The notes under the pieces are model-generated. The model worked only from the letters and a program-made list of their open reading frames with translations. It did no database searches and had not been told where the DNA came from. Source: Sphingomonas arvum (GTDB taxonomy: Bacteria > Pseudomonadota > Alphaproteobacteria > Sphingomonadales > Sphingomonadaceae). From it: DNA of 64,000 bases. The translations under genes and the position numbers were made by a program. The DNA lies in contig NZ_JAPDOB010000002.1 of NCBI RefSeq assembly GCF_026013565.1, positions 1,054,001 through 1,118,000 on the forward strand, written 5' to 3'. This document shows positions 22,109 to 42,438 of this stretch, in pieces. Positions within the stretch are counted from its first letter, which is position 1, and each line of letters starts with the position of its first letter.

Positions 22109-22148
22109 GGAGATACGCTAACTAGTGACGACTGCCTTCAGATGCGAG

Positions 22149-22532
22149 TGCCAGAGGGCCTGTAAGCCGGGTTCTGTCCACCGCCATGAAGCGGATGGGC
22201 GGCCATTCCTCTAGGCCTGCGATTGCCCGCAGGCTCAAGCAACCAACCCGGGCGGCGAGCCGGAACAGGCCCATGTACCGCCCCTATTCGGTCTTGCACC
22301 CGGTGGGGTTTACCATGCCGGTCCCGTTGCCGGTCCCGCGGTGCGCTCTTGCCGCACCCTTTCGCCCTTGCCTGGCCGAAGCCGTGGCGGTCTGCTTTCT
22401 GTGGCACTGTCCCTGACCCGCTGTCGCCGAAGCTCTGGCGGGCCGCCGGGCGTTACCCGGCACCGTTGTTCCGTGGAGCCCGGACTTTCCTCGGCGAGCC
22501 GAAGCTCGACGCGGCCGCCCGGCCCTCTGGCG
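22149..22532 (-). ncRNA. rnpB: RNase P RNA, bacterial class A
   Basis: Read on the minus strand this region has the universally conserved 5' block GAGGAAAGTCCGGGCTCC (22475-22492), the ACAGNAA-type 3' block within the sequence complementary to 22160-22180, and a perfect 11-bp P1 helix joining 22521-22531 with 22150-22160. Total length about 384 nt is normal. The RNA is the catalytic part of RNase P, which trims tRNA 5' leaders. Exact ends are estimated from P1. It begins about 30 bp after the amidase gene on the same strand, so its promoter may overlap that gene's 3' end. Confidence 0.95.
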
Positions 22533-24251: not shown

Positions 24252-25601
24252 GTGAACAAGTTCCTGCTTTCGGCCAGCATGGCCAGCCTGATCGCCGTTC
24301 CGAGTGTCGCCGATGCGCGCAGGAAGCCGCAGCCGGCGCCGGCGCCGGCGGTGGTGCGCGTGGCGCCGACCGATCCGGTTGAACTCTACTACTTCTCGCA
24401 CCAGGACGCGCCCATCTGGACCCGTTCGGCGGATAGCCGTGCGGCGCTGCCGGTGCTGGTGGAGCTGCTCCGCCGGTCGCCGGCCGAAGGCTTGGCGAAC
24501 GGGTCGCTGCTGGCCGCTTCGGTCGAGCAGGCCATGCAGTCGGGCAACACGCAGGCGCTCGAGTTCGCGGCCAGCAAGGCGTGGGTGTCGTACGTCCAGC
24601 TCATGAAGAAGGCGCCGGCCGGGATGCTGTTCGGCTACCCGCACCTGGCGCCGCAGGGCAACCGTCCGGACCAGATCCTGCTGACCGCCGCCGCCGCGCC
24701 GAGCCTGGCGCAGCACCTGCAGAAGGTCAGCACGCCTAACGCTTACTATGCGCAGCTGCGCGATGCGTCCTGGAAGGCCATGCAGGCGGCGCCGGGCAGC
24801 GCGCCCGACCCGCGCATTCTGTCGAACCTGGAGCGCGCCCGGGTGCTTCCGGCGGGCGGCCGGTACATCATGGTCAACACTGCCGAAGCGATGCTGACGA
24901 TGTACGACAATGGCCAGCCGGTCGGCAGCATGAAGACGGTTGTCGGCATGACCAAGTTCCCGGACGGCAAGCCGAATTACCTGCCGACTCCAATGATCGC
25001 GAGCATGATCTATTACGTGACGTTCAATCCTTACTGGAACGTCCCGCAGAACCTCATCCTGAAGAACATCGGCCACAAGGCCCGCGACCAGGGCGAGTCC
25101 TACCTGAAGGGCCAGGGTTTCCAGGTGATGAGCGACTGGACCGAGAATGCGACTGTGGTTCCCTACGACCAAGTCGATTGGAAGGCGGTGGCGGCGGGCA
25201 CCAAGATTGTCCGCATCCGCGAACTGCCCGGCGCGATGAATTCCATGGGCCGTTACAAGTTCAACTTCCGCAATGCCGAGGACATCTACCTCCACGACAC
25301 GCCGATGCGGGAATACTTCAAGAAGGACGTCCGCACCCTGTCGAACGGTTGCATTCGCCTGGAGGATGCCAAACGGCTAGCAACCTGGCTGCTCGGCCGT
25401 GAGCCCGTGGCGCCGAATGACCAGCCCGAGCAGCATGTGGCAATTCCTACGGGAGTGCCGGTCTACGTCACATATTTGACGGCCAAGCCGCAGCCGGATG
25501 GGAAGATCGCGTTCCTCGATGACTACTATGGGTGGGATGGCCGCCCCGACCGGCAGCTTTCCGCTGTGCCGAGCTTGAGTGGCGCGCACGTCGCACGGTA
25601 G
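24252..25601 (+). CDS. L,D-transpeptidase, YcbB type (second copy)
   Basis: A 449-residue secreted enzyme related to the one at 19365. Signal peptide about residues 1-22. The YkuD domain in the second half contains YLHDTPMREYF and the nucleophile motif LSNGCIRLEDAK. The N-terminal half lacks the clear peptidoglycan-binding repeat of its paralogue and is rich in Ala/Pro early on. The start is GTG 24252. A terminator follows at 25636-25669. It probably shares the role of 3-3 cross-linking or lipoprotein anchoring. Confidence 0.9.
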   Translation: MNKFLLSASMASLIAVPSVADARRKPQPAPAPAVVRVAPTDPVELYYFSHQDAPIWTRSADSRAALPVLVELLRRSPAEGLANGSLLAASVEQAMQSGNTQALEFAASKAWVSYVQLMKKAPAGMLFGYPHLAPQGNRPDQILLTAAAAPSLAQHLQKVSTPNAYYAQLRDASWKAMQAAPGSAPDPRILSNLERARVLPAGGRYIMVNTAEAMLTMYDNGQPVGSMKTVVGMTKFPDGKPNYLPTPMIASMIYYVTFNPYWNVPQNLILKNIGHKARDQGESYLKGQGFQVMSDWTENATVVPYDQVDWKAVAAGTKIVRIRELPGAMNSMGRYKFNFRNAEDIYLHDTPMREYFKKDVRTLSNGCIRLEDAKRLATWLLGREPVAPNDQPEQHVAIPTGVPVYVTYLTAKPQPDGKIAFLDDYYGWDGRPDRQLSAVPSLSGAHVAR

Positions 25602-25635
25602 TCGCAAGGTTCAATAACTCAAGATAGCGCAAGAG

Positions 25636-25669
25636 GGCCGTCGCGGGAGGACCGCGGCGGCCTTTCTTA
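25636..25669 (+). terminator. Rho-independent terminator after the second L,D-transpeptidase
   Basis: GGCCGTCGCGG (25636-25646) pairs with CCGCGGCGGCC (25652-25662), one G-T pair, five-base loop, followed by TTTCTTAT. Position 35 bp after the stop codon fits termination of that gene. Confidence 0.75.
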
Positions 25670-25697
25670 TGGCCGAAAGGCTCCACCGTTGCGCAAA

Positions 25698-25729
25698 CGA
25701 AAAGCCCACGGGAGCTAGTCCCGTGGGCT
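25698..25729 (-). terminator. Rho-independent terminator for the OmpA-like gene
   Basis: On the minus strand AGCCCACGGGA (25729-25719) pairs perfectly with TCCCGTGGGCT (25713-25703) around a five-base loop and is followed by TTTTC. It lies 126 bp downstream of the OmpA-like stop codon and forms the end of the structured element described separately. Confidence 0.72.
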
Positions 25730-25840
25730 CTTACGTCGGTCCTGTCGATCTCGCAGCTTGAAGCAGCTCGCTCGCAGGCCGTCCGGCGTCGCACTCTTTC
25801 GCGTAAGGCGGAGGTTGCTGGAGCAACCTCCTTCTTACGC
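25703..25840. repeat. Structured intergenic element, copy A
   Basis: From left to right: hairpin with CCACGGGA/TCCCGTGG arms (25703-25729); conserved linker ACGTCGGTCCTGTC ending at 25746; block GCAGGCCgtCCGGC at 25774-25787; and a long hairpin in which GCGTAAG (25801-25807) pairs with CTTACGC (25834-25840) and GGAGGTTG with CAACCTCC inside it. Copy B at 41132-41250 has the same order of elements. It occupies the 3' flank of the OmpA-like gene. It could be a transcribed 3' UTR structure, a small RNA or a dispersed repeat. Confidence 0.6.
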
Positions 25841-25854
25841 TGGAGCGCTATCGC

Positions 25855-26679
25855 TTAGCCGCGCTCGACCGTCGGCGGCGGCGGCGGCGGCGGCGGCGGC
25901 GGGACCGGGCAGGTGTCGGTCGCCAGGATCACCGAGCCGTCCGGGCAGGTCTGCGTCGCCGGGGGCGGCGGCGGAGGCGGCGGCGGGGGCGGCGGGGGCG
26001 GCGGCGGGGGCGGCGGCGGAGCGAAGTTGAAGATCACCGACGCGAGCAGCGAGTGCGAGCGGAAGCGACCATCTACGTCGAACGCCGAGGTGCCCGTGCT
26101 GATGCTGTCCTTGATGTTGCTGGCGTTGAAGAAGCGATACTTCAGGCCGAGGTCGACATTGCTGCTGACCGGAACGCGGACACCCGCAAGGATTTGCCAG
26201 GCAAGGCCGCGGTCGGACACGCTATCGCTGCCGCCCAGCCCCAGGTCGACGGTCGTCTTGACCCGGGCGACACCGATGCCGGCGCCGACAAAGCCGTTCA
26301 GACTATCGTCGTTGCCGAAGTCGAGCAGCGCGTTGCCCATCAGAGACACGGCCCGGCTCTTGCCGTCAGCGTCGACGGCATTCGGGCCAACGAAGTTGCC
26401 GCGATAGGTGTCGTGGTTGGCGCGCTTGTAGCCGAGCTCGGCCTCAAGCCGGACGAGGCCAAGATCGTAGCCACCGACAAGATCGACGTCGTAGCCGGTC
26501 TTGTGGTCAATGGTCAGATAGTTGTCCAGCAAGGCGCCGGTCGAGGTGGTGAAGTCGATGTCCGCGTCCTCGACGAGCATCAGGCCGCCCTCGACGCCGA
26601 CGTACGGCGAACCATCACGAGCCATCGCCGGCGTCGCGAACGCGGCTGCCGCGGCAGCCGCCAGAAGATATTTGCGCAT
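25855..26679 (-). CDS. Outer-membrane beta-barrel protein, OmpA-like N-domain with poly-proline tail
   Basis: A 274-residue secreted protein with a signal peptide cleaved near residue 20 (AMA/RDGSPYVG). Residues about 20-218 alternate like an eight-stranded barrel, ending in SLLASVIFNFA. Then come about 20 prolines, the segment ATQTCPDGSVILATDTCPV with two cysteines, ten more prolines and TVERG. No OmpA C-terminal peptidoglycan-binding domain follows, so it lacks the usual wall anchor. ATG 26679 is chosen over an upstream in-frame codon at 26715 because it gives a proper signal peptide. Confidence 0.82.
   Translation of the reverse strand: MRKYLLAAAAAAAFATPAMARDGSPYVGVEGGLMLVEDADIDFTTSTGALLDNYLTIDHKTGYDVDLVGGYDLGLVRLEAELGYKRANHDTYRGNFVGPNAVDADGKSRAVSLMGNALLDFGNDDSLNGFVGAGIGVARVKTTVDLGLGGSDSVSDRGLAWQILAGVRVPVSSNVDLGLKYRFFNASNIKDSISTGTSAFDVDGRFRSHSLLASVIFNFAPPPPPPPPPPPPPPPPPPPPATQTCPDGSVILATDTCPVPPPPPPPPPPTVERG
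25873..26022. repeat. GGC-rich simple-sequence tracts encoding poly-proline
   Basis: Two GGC/GGG/GGA triplet tracts lie inside the OmpA-like gene and encode about 10 and about 20 prolines on the minus strand. Variable third bases show the tract is kept at protein level and not only a slippage product. Tract length may vary between strains. Confidence 0.8.
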
Positions 26680-26894
26680 GCTTTCCCCTTTTCCCGAGTT
26701 TAATGGCGCCGCCAATATCTAGAGCATCAGCCAAGTTGCCGTCTAGGCGCGGGTGTCACCCGGCGGTGCATTATCGTTGCGTCAAAGACACATTCTCAGG
26801 CCTTGCCGCTGAAAAACGTGCCTTCTCATCATCGCGCAGTCGCTATGGCCTCTGTGGCGCGCCCTGCTAATATCGGGACGGGAAGGAAGGGACC

Positions 26895-41110: not shown

Positions 41111-41131
41111 GGTGACATGTTGAGCGAGGCC

Positions 41132-41250
41132 GTCACGGGAGTAAATCCCGTGACGTCGGTCCTGTCCAGCTGTGCTGGCAGGCCAGCCGGCCTTCGCCGT
41201 CTCTCAGCTAAGCCGCCCTCGCTTCGCTCCGTTTGGCTTAGCTTCGGCGG
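41132..41250. repeat. Structured intergenic element, copy B
   Basis: Hairpin GTCACGGGA/TCCCGTGAC (41132-41154), linker GTCGGTCCTGTC (41155-41166), block GCAGGCCagCCGGC (41178-41191), then AGCTAAGCC (41206-41214) pairing with GGCTTAGCT (41235-41243). A competing stem AGCCGCC/GGCGGCT overlaps it. Order and linker match copy A at 25703-25840, and both copies are downstream of minus-strand genes (here thiolase). Unlike copy A, the first hairpin has no T-run after it. Confidence 0.58.
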
Positions 41251-42438
41251 CTACAGGACTTCAAACAATCCCGCGGCGCCCATGCCGCCGCCGACGCACA
41301 TGGTGACCACGACGTGCTTGGCGCCGCGGCGCTTGCCTTCGAGCAGGGCGTGGCCGGTCAGGCGGGCACCGCTCATGCCATACGGGTGGCCGATGGAGAT
41401 GGCGCCGCCGTTGACGTTGAGCAGCTCGTCAGGGATGCCGAGCTTGTCCTGGCAGTAGAGCACCTGGACGGCGAAGGCCTCGTTCAGCTCCCACAGACCG
41501 ATGTCCTCGACCTTGAGGCCGAAGCGGTTCAGCAGCTTGGGCACGGCGAAAACGGGACCGATGCCCATCTCGTCCGGCTCGGTGCCGGCGACCGCCATGC
41601 CGAGGTAACGGCCGAGCGGCTCCAGGCCCTTCTTCTCGGCGAGGCTCGCGTCCATGACGACGCAGGCCGAGGCACCATCCGACAGCTGGCTGGCGTTGCC
41701 GGCGGTGATCAGCTGTTCCGGGCCCATGACGGGCTGCAGCTTGGCCAGGTCCTCGAGCGTGGTCTGGGGACGGTTGCCCTCGTCCTTGGCGAGCGTGACC
41801 TCCTGCATGCTGGTCTCGCCGGTCTCCTTGTTCTTGACCGCCATGCGGGCGGTGACCTCGACGATCTCGTCGGCGAACACGCCGTTCGCTTGCGCGGCGG
41901 CGGTGCGCTGCTGGCTCTTGAGCGCATACTCGTCACAGCGCTCTCGGCTGATGCCGTAGCGCTTGCCGACGACCTCGGCGGTCTGGATCATCGGCATGTA
42001 GATGCCGTTGTGCATGGAGAGCAGCTCGGGGTCGGGGCCGACCCGCATCTCGGGGGTCTGGACGAGGCTGATGCTCTCGACGCCGCCGGCAACGCACACG
42101 TCCATGCGGTCGACGATGACCTGCTTGGCGGCAGTGGCGATCGCCATCAGGCCCGACGCGCACTGGCGGTCGATCGACATGCCGGCGACACCGACGCCCA
42201 GGCCGGCGCGGAGCGCGGCGGTGCGGCCGATGGTGGTCTGCACGCCCTGCTGGAGGGCGGCGCCCATGACGCAATCCTCGATCTCCTGCGGCTCGACCTT
42301 GGCGCGTTCGACCGCGGCGCGGATGGCGTGCGCGGCGAGGGTGGGAGAGGGCGTAGCGTTGAACGCGCCGCGGTAGGCGCGGCCGATCGGGGTGCGGGCG
42401 GTGGAGACGATAACGGCGTCGCGGGCGGCGGTGGGCAT
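41251..42438 (-). CDS. Thiolase (acetyl-CoA acyltransferase)
   Basis: A 395-residue thiolase. The acylated cysteine is Cys93 in DRQCASGL; the other catalytic motifs are [11 protein letters not shown] (His) and [10 protein letters not shown] (second Cys). It either degrades 3-ketoacyl-CoA in beta-oxidation or condenses acetyl-CoA; PHA precursor supply is possible given phaZ 3 kb away. A MaoC-like hydratase gene lies 30 bp upstream on the same strand, which favours a fatty-acid or PHA context. Confidence 0.92.

Follow-up and report, generated by a model that had tools for sequence, protein, structure and literature searches.

A dispersed, covarying three-hairpin element behind genes of Sphingomonadaceae and its possible role at RNA 3′ ends

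Introduction

What kind of element recurs, with paired base changes, behind unrelated genes of Sphingomonas arvum, and what might it do there? The stretch of DNA analysed here, referred to as the window, spans 64,000 nucleotides of the 2.75-Mb genome of this species (G000; window = C2:1054001-1118000) and contains two similar hairpin-rich intergenic segments, designated copies A and B. A sequence-only reading, made from the letters without database searches, had placed them at 25703-25840 and 41132-41250, had taken the changes on both sides of one stem as a sign of selection on structure, and had suggested a small RNA, a 3′-UTR element, or a dispersed palindromic repeat belonging to no named family.

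Two copies in the window

Copies A and B are present where they had been reported, with the same order of blocks, and both lie in the 3′ flank of minus-strand genes, encoding an OmpA-like barrel protein and a thiolase, respectively; their real extents differ somewhat from those first given (Table 1). The outer stems, GCGTAAG/CTTACGC in A and AGCTAAG/CTTAGCT in B, are indeed changed on both sides, and the linker ACGTCGGTCCTGTC is identical in the two copies. This linker and the block GCAGGCCnnCCGGC, both of which had been recognised, are not single-stranded but pair together into a middle hairpin. The meaningful strand is the minus strand, so that the long hairpin comes first, beginning at the stop codon, and the CACGGG hairpin comes last. 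Copy A begins directly past the stop codon of its OmpA-like host (25855-25857), and copy B lies directly 3′ of the thiolase stop (41251-41253); in the genomes G056 and G057, the element is also found behind a homologous thiolase gene. The two copies are not each other's closest relatives (from A, B is found only at E 0.34), and a blastn search with copy B recovers further copies in its own genome, down to E 7.5e-12.

Several neighbouring features were also recorded. A plus-strand L,D-transpeptidase gene ending at 25601 has a GC-rich hairpin of its own, GGCCGTCGCGGG...CCGCGGCGGCCTTTCTT, with a T-run (window 25600-25700), which opposes copy A over the convergent spacer. Long GGC/GGCGGC runs at 25870-26030 encode a series of prolines close to the C-terminal end of the OmpA-like protein, and the 307-aa ORF downstream of copy B has no Pfam match. 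A class A RNase P RNA gene lies on the minus strand at 22147-22530; its 3′ flank shows no element by eye and no match to the first covariance model (R1, described below), although the element does follow RNase P RNA in another genome (L377).

Table 1. Positions of copies A and B, their hairpins, and adjacent genes in the window
Feature	Position	Strand	Basis or remark
Copy A, whole element	25699..25854 (about)	-	cmsearch match G000:C2:1079699-1079811 = window 25699-25811; P1 carries it to the stop codon
Copy A, P1 hairpin with variable apical stem	25786..25854	-	Sequence; folding from the stop to P2; P1a/P1b covariation among 51 family copies with anchors
Copy A, P2 hairpin, CGGACGGCCTGC ... 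GACAGGACCGACG, bulged A	25734..25785	-	Covariation in family alignments
Copy A, P3 hairpin, AGCCCACGGG/CCCGTGGGCT, then TTTT	25700..25729	-	Sequence
Host of copy A, OmpA-like outer membrane beta-barrel protein with proline-rich C-terminus	25855..26715	-	Pfam PF13505, E 1.3e-13
Copy B, whole element	41128..41250 (about)	-	cmsearch match G000:C2:1095126-1095215 = window 41126-41215; P1 reaches the stop
Copy B, P1 hairpin, internal loop CCGA / GAGAGA	41190..41250	-	Sequence; family covariation
Copy B, P2 hairpin	41154..41189	-	Sequence; family covariation
Copy B, P3 hairpin, TCACGGG-ATTTACT-CCCGTGA	41133..41153	-	CGGCC next, at 41128-41132
Host of copy B, thiolase	41251..42438	-	Pfam PF00108/PF02803
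Same-strand ORF downstream of copy B, 307 aa	40187..41110	-	Start codon ~17 nt past copy B

Architecture and covariation

On the transcribed strand of the preceding gene, three hairpins follow one another in the order P1 (just past the gene), P2, and P3. In P1, an internal loop (CCGA / GA(A)GAGA) separates the outer from the inner stem, and the tip is variable. This hairpin begins at the stop codon or up to about ten bases from it; its first predicted paired base is at +1 in 88 of 152 copies, a soft figure because GC-rich sequence folds readily. P2 takes the form CGG..GGCCTGC/GACAGGACCGACG with a bulged A; across the family it reads CG-GG-C(A)-CUG, A residues being bulged and the loop varying widely in length. 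P3 is CACGGG-ATTTACT-CCCGTG, with the family pattern (T/G)CACG(GG)ATTYACT(CC)CGTG. Past P3 comes CGGC, the composition becoming unremarkable about ten bases further on, and short GCC(G)...(C)GGC ends are visible on the element. The GNA triloop is very stable in DNA hairpins, and P1 tips are of the GNA type in 41 of 92 predicted triloops, a count made with no control; the idea that they hint at selection on single-stranded DNA was considered, and nothing is built on it here.

For 14 copies from the window's own genome, RNAalifold finds P2 unaided, with double changes in 7 of 12 pairs, and the addition of P3 by hand brings this to 10 of 18 pairs. None of 500 shuffled alignments matches the observed pairing percentage, the number of double-change pairs, or the covariation score, and 4 of 500 match the number of further pair types. 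In an alignment of 100 copies from multiple genera, which is biased towards the model because it was fitted to it, 97.3% of the P2 and P3 cells are paired and 16 of 18 pairs carry double changes. Double-change cells number 340, compared with 110.5 on average after shuffling and no more than 56 in the slid controls. P1 was assessed with motif anchors and without a complement search; from 121 eligible copies, 67 without an anchor and 3 duplicates were removed, leaving 51 distinct copies. In register, the inner stem is paired in 37-46 of these 51 at five of six positions and in 14 at the sixth, compared with 7-20 when shifted by one. For the outer stem, whose offset was not fixed beforehand and in which two motif lengths are mixed, the best offset gives pairing in 32-39 of 51 at four positions, and three other offsets give 13-34, 6-23, and 4-27. 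The element is a structured one whose compensatory changes exceed those of shuffled and slid controls, and the selection on structure proposed from the outer stem of A and B is borne out by paired changes in many copies. An additional outer helix closing P2 and P3 is not claimed: its two inner pairs hold (67-69 of 70) without telling variation, and the three beyond them, paired in 29-55 of 70, covary little.

Family size and distribution

The linker pattern, together with blastn searches using A and B, yielded further intergenic copies in G000, and the 14 that were aligned served to build the covariance model R1. The copies belong to a structured family of ~125-155 nt. In G000, R1 matches 29 places at E <= 1 and 21 at E <= 5.4e-5, the latter including all 14 training copies, and several of the weaker places are reverse-strand readings of known copies; in the window, A and B are the sole matches. 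Within the genus, R1 finds the element in at least 57 of 61 genomes at E <= 0.01, with at least 0-32 matches per genome and at least 32 in each of two genomes (G054 and G057). Across the family, at least 31 of 199 genomes and at least 16 of 91 sampled genera carry it (E <= 1e-4, 21 candidates scored per genome). In the order, a second model, R2, built on 100 copies from many genera, matches at least 8 of 79 genomes; these 8 are all among the 22 genomes of the own family, with none among the candidates scored in the 57 genomes of other families; in the class, it matches at least 2 of 144 genomes, both from the own family. As 21-70 candidates were scored per genome, the copy numbers for genus, family, order, and class are all lower bounds. 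The fetched copies are the best-scoring among the matches listed and lean towards the model, and for seven genomes (G057, G048, G049, G053, G054, G252, and G205) part of the copies were fetched. A 14-mer contig scan gave at least three sphingomonad loci among the matches listed (L034, L091, and L142), of which L034 and L142 scored with the model. In the sampled genomes, the distribution is limited to Sphingomonadaceae.

The search proposed by the sequence-only reading, a covariance model run against sphingomonad genomes, has returned many covarying copies, the reverse of the lack of further copies or of paired changes that would have spoken against it, and its view that the element belongs to no named family also holds for Rfam. 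A release 15 scan of the whole window gave RNase P RNA alone above the gathering threshold and nothing at the element, and permissive scans of A and B gave only matches far below gathering scores. Chance similarity of the copies was rejected on the basis of the blastn match at E 7.5e-12, the shuffles, the covariance-model matches, and the covariation among 100 copies. A literature search, including the available text of PMC4741004, PMC12306157, and PMC7566282, found no description of the element, and the main text of one of these, an analysis of REP sequences, contains in its available form no word beginning 'Sphingomon' (PMC12306157).

Genomic position and hosts

In the final tally of 178 copies, from which identical sequences and 13 hits too near a locus end had been dropped, 138 lie within 75 nt past the end of a co-oriented ORF, 13 behind a tRNA, one behind RNase P RNA, and one behind SRP RNA; the other 25 are without a recognised co-oriented host and count against a module acting at 3′ ends. 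A first tally with a simple gene caller placed 70 of 86 copies behind a co-oriented gene and 16 otherwise, the downstream neighbour of the 70 being co-directional in 36, convergent in 33, and not called in 1. Gene calls in the host and neighbour tallies follow a GC-skew heuristic, and several cases of missing or antisense hosts proved to be tRNA, RNase P RNA, or SRP RNA. Between genes of the same direction, the element is found in sense orientation 36 times and in antisense 6 times, a strand bias that indirectly supports its transcription as RNA.

On the sense side, the model start is most often 30-50 nt from the stop codon (80 of 132), where P1 fits. After 20 hits too near a locus end had been dropped, an ORF end was found within 75 nt on the sense side of 132 of 171 copies and on the antisense mirror side of 65 of 171; 26 of these 65 antisense gene ends are 0-10 nt from the model end, an excess to be expected if a convergent gene stops immediately behind the element. 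The occupied mirror side indicates that short convergent spacers account for part of the adjacency, which counts against a 3′-end module. In a scan of 37 loci, ARAGORN identified tRNA-Trp, -Pro, -Met, -Gly, -Thr, and -Asn genes near copies, and an Rfam scan of 20 loci located an RNase P RNA end 30 nt before the model start (L377) and an SRP RNA end 19 nt before it (L387). A few copies beside tRNAs are antisense (L343 and L376) and count against a 3′-end module.

Hosts in G000 include groEL, lepA, infB, sdhB, ychF, acetoacetyl-CoA reductase, and an aldehyde dehydrogenase. Homologous hosts carry the element in other genomes (groEL, lepA, infB, ychF, thiolase, acetoacetyl-CoA-reductase-like genes, and others), and groEL, lepA, infB, thiolase, acetoacetyl-CoA-reductase-like genes, and tRNA-Trp recur as hosts across species, some of them across genera; sdhB was not found as a host in other genomes among the copies fetched. 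In the infB-rbfA gap of G000, the copy is without P3 and extends to the rbfA start, whereas the infB copy of G054 has P3. Inverted element pairs lie close together at several loci (L361, between neighbouring tRNAs, L368, L364, L224, L266, L331, and others), and at L391 (G026) the element is situated between two identical tRNA-Trp genes. At three loci of G244 (L277, L279, and L283), a second common repeat, AATGTCCGCTTTCGACCCA..., comes right after the element, so that two repeat families adjoin.

Sense orientation, adjacency to a functional RNA end, and the presence of non-coding hosts together suggest a role at the RNA 3′ end. The explanation that we favour, tentatively, is that the element is a dispersed 3′-end RNA module that would protect or process the 3′ end of the upstream RNA. 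It would form the transcribed beginning of the 3′ trailer on host RNAs of several kinds (mRNA, tRNA, RNase P RNA, or SRP RNA) and fold into P1-P2-P3, with the P1 internal loop CCGA / GA(A)GAGA, the P2 bulges, and the P3 loop ATTYACT as probable recognition features. The fold may then set the upstream RNA 3′ end or shield it from 3′-to-5′ exonucleases, or direct cleavage there, while transcription into the next gene would not be fully blocked. Copies come and go as whole units, and the structure is retained at the sites. Among the identities suggested at the outset, a combination of 3′-end element and dispersed repeat is favoured over a free-standing small RNA.

Turnover and possible selfish spread

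The main rival, possible though on balance unlikely in our estimation, is a selfish non-autonomous mobile element that inserts in sense just past gene 3′ ends, its fold serving its own copying with no benefit to the host. Two sites bear on this explanation. Behind tRNA-Trp, a model match lies directly after the tRNA in 14 of 30 genus loci, some of the matches being weak, and the remaining loci are empty or hold remnants by eye; the copy of G000 is decayed (L400, 26.4 bits). Occupied and empty sites differ by 128 nt (L394 vs L396) or by about 140 nt (L245 vs L396). Behind lepA, the element is present in 8 of 30 loci (L424, L426, L435, L437, L439, L442, L444, and L448), in one of which (L442) it follows a partial second lepA tail. 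At both sites, the element is intact, decayed, or absent depending on the species, the absent or decayed state being judged by eye where the model is silent. The occupied/empty pairs and the decayed copies behind tRNA-Trp, that of G000 included, speak for selfish spread, as does a copy number of at least 0-32 within one genus. Two copies in the same genome but at different genes (L324 and L327) are alike end to end, with identity in 112 of 124 aligned columns, and the same genome holds the nearest relative of a copy in 39 of 123 cases, compared with 9.2 expected, which likewise fits selfish spread and counts against a 3′-end module. Of 72 directed comparisons between genomes, 16 have orthologous copies as mutual best matches (5.8 expected); taken with the same-genome neighbours, this points to both inheritance and spread or homogenisation. 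The patchy presence, from 8 of 30 at lepA and 14 of 30 at tRNA-Trp to at least 0-32 per genome, suggests that no host depends on the element and also counts against a 3′-end module.

Other observations argue against a selfish origin. At the junction of L394 and L396, the one host site compared closely, there is at most a repeated CA and no clear target-site duplication. Copy B has no blastn match in 72,556 plasmid and 50,697 phage records, a DNA-level search with one query copy that diverged copies would escape, and no Y1 transposase was found in 58 of the 61 genus genomes. The peak of stop-codon distances is sharper than mere tolerance of insertion suggests. Furthermore, lepA same-site copies keep their pairing through double changes: six of them (G000, G048, G029, G017, G045, and G244) were folded jointly, L442, L444, and L448 as well as L260 and L261 from other genera being left out, and 16 of 39 predicted pairs show double changes in at least one copy, a count made with no control. 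A GTG/CAC version of P2 is common to four of the six (G000, G048, G029, and G017), which indicates common descent at the lepA site; the same-site paired changes could partly stem from the exchange of one copy for another, which is possible for the copies outside these four. In two genomes (L442 and L444), part of the lepA C-terminus is duplicated close to lepA, and another hairpin-like repeat, GGTTCCGGCG...CGTTGGAA, is found behind lepA at L433, L440, and L446, three times in tandem at L433.

A more speculative scenario, which we consider doubtful, is that an RNA module is installed as a precise sense unit at the 3′ ends of any transcript, possibly via an RNA intermediate or the transcription machinery, and is then selected as a 3′-end tag for a dedicated factor.

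Transcription termination as an alternative

Placement right behind genes and stable RNAs, as well as the existence of inverted element pairs, would also be expected of a family-specific terminator or terminator-like 3′-end signal with P3 as the terminating hairpin, an explanation that we regard as improbable. In copy A, P3 is followed by TTTT, so that this copy may be an intrinsic terminator as well. Among 191 copies, hits with less than 40 nt of downstream sequence having been dropped, TTTT follows within 20 nt past P3 in only 11, and at least five T in 8 nt in 18. Convergent downstream neighbours are hardly enriched, being found for 33 of 69 hosts compared with 24 of 58 gene ends of the window, a small excess at most; for all gene ends of the fetched loci, hosts included, the count is 104 of 194. 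In 16 of the 36 co-directional cases, the next same-strand start, by crude gene starts, follows at a distance of 0-60 nt, which also tells against a terminator. Behind tRNA-Trp, a hairpin resembling an intrinsic terminator, with a T-run, was seen by eye further downstream both at loci with the element (L245, L394, L395, L401, and L404) and at loci without it (L396, L398, and L405); given this separate putative terminator, the element seems to lie in the trailer rather than to be the terminator itself. In the available text of a Term-seq study of Z. mobilis, about one third of termination sites correspond to predicted intrinsic terminators with U-tracts (PMC7566282). A plain intrinsic terminator was rejected as unsupported, with a U-tract absent in most copies and a separate hairpin at tRNA-Trp, copy A being the exception. 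Termination as such appears weakly supported by these sequences, which favours a stability or processing module and leaves selfish persistence as its main rival.

Relation to known elements

A slightly less probable explanation than the terminator is that the element is a source of 3′-UTR-derived small RNAs, or a sponge or binding site for one regulatory RNA or protein that would link the hosts as a regulon. The motifs conserved in the P1 internal loop and the P3 loop, as well as one fold on many unrelated hosts, are consistent with such a role, whereas hosts that include tRNAs, RNase P RNA, and SRP RNA and an occurrence that is patchy among species are not.

The REP/BIME sequences of enterobacteria are similar in being dispersed extragenic hairpins at gene 3′ ends, some of them inside operons. 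REPs are tied to mRNA 3′ stability, the topic named in the title of a 1988 review cited in PMC12306157, and consist of a single short palindrome with a conserved 5′ tetranucleotide beside it. In contrast, the present element is longer (about 125-155 nt), has three distinct hairpins with conserved internal loops, lies mostly in sense orientation with its start at the stop codon or tRNA end, and is no single palindrome. The dispersal implied by the term dispersed palindromic repeat is confirmed, whereas the plain palindrome gives way to three separate hairpins, of which P1 has a conserved internal loop and P2 has bulges. That it is a REP/BIME-type palindrome moved by a RAYT transposase is extremely unlikely despite its dispersed, extragenic, hairpin-forming nature near gene ends: the ~130 nt three-hairpin architecture and prevailing orientation differ, and Y1_Tnp (PF01797) was detected in only 3 of 61 genus genomes (G005, G034, and G054) and in neither G000 nor G057 with its at least 32 matches, so that RAYT-driven movement is rejected for most genomes, G054 (at least 32 matches) having one Y1_Tnp match.

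ERIC and RUP are MITE-like small dispersed repeats, and the element resembles them in being short, non-coding, present or absent as a unit, and variable in copy number among relatives. It differs in having at most a repeated CA (one site compared) and in that no partner transposase was found, Y1 being the sole type searched, as well as in its prevailing sense orientation and in same-site copies that differ by compensatory changes. Intrinsic terminators share with it a GC-rich hairpin directly downstream of genes, but the element is mostly without a U-tract and has sequence motifs and bulges common to unrelated genes. The attC sites of integrons lie directly behind a stop codon and fold into an imperfect stem that has extra-helical bases and a terminal loop of variable sequence or size. 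The likeness to attC is one of anatomy only (imperfect stem, extra-helical bases, and variable loop past the stop codon), since the element occurs chromosome-wide behind core genes and tRNAs, with no cassette array noticed. Its nearest kinds are REP-like 3′ elements and MITE-like repeats, from which it is set apart by its three-hairpin fold, its orientation, and its use behind tRNAs and ribozymes.

Biological implications

Whichever explanation holds, the element represents a large covarying RNA-like family, unmatched here by any Rfam release 15 model. If selfish, it would be unusual in its landing at the ends of genes, for the most part in a single orientation, with no transposase recognised here. 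If the module instead sets or protects RNA 3′ ends, one fold would serve both mRNAs and stable RNAs throughout a bacterial family, and its presence or absence between close species would constitute a natural experiment on the function of 3′ trailers.
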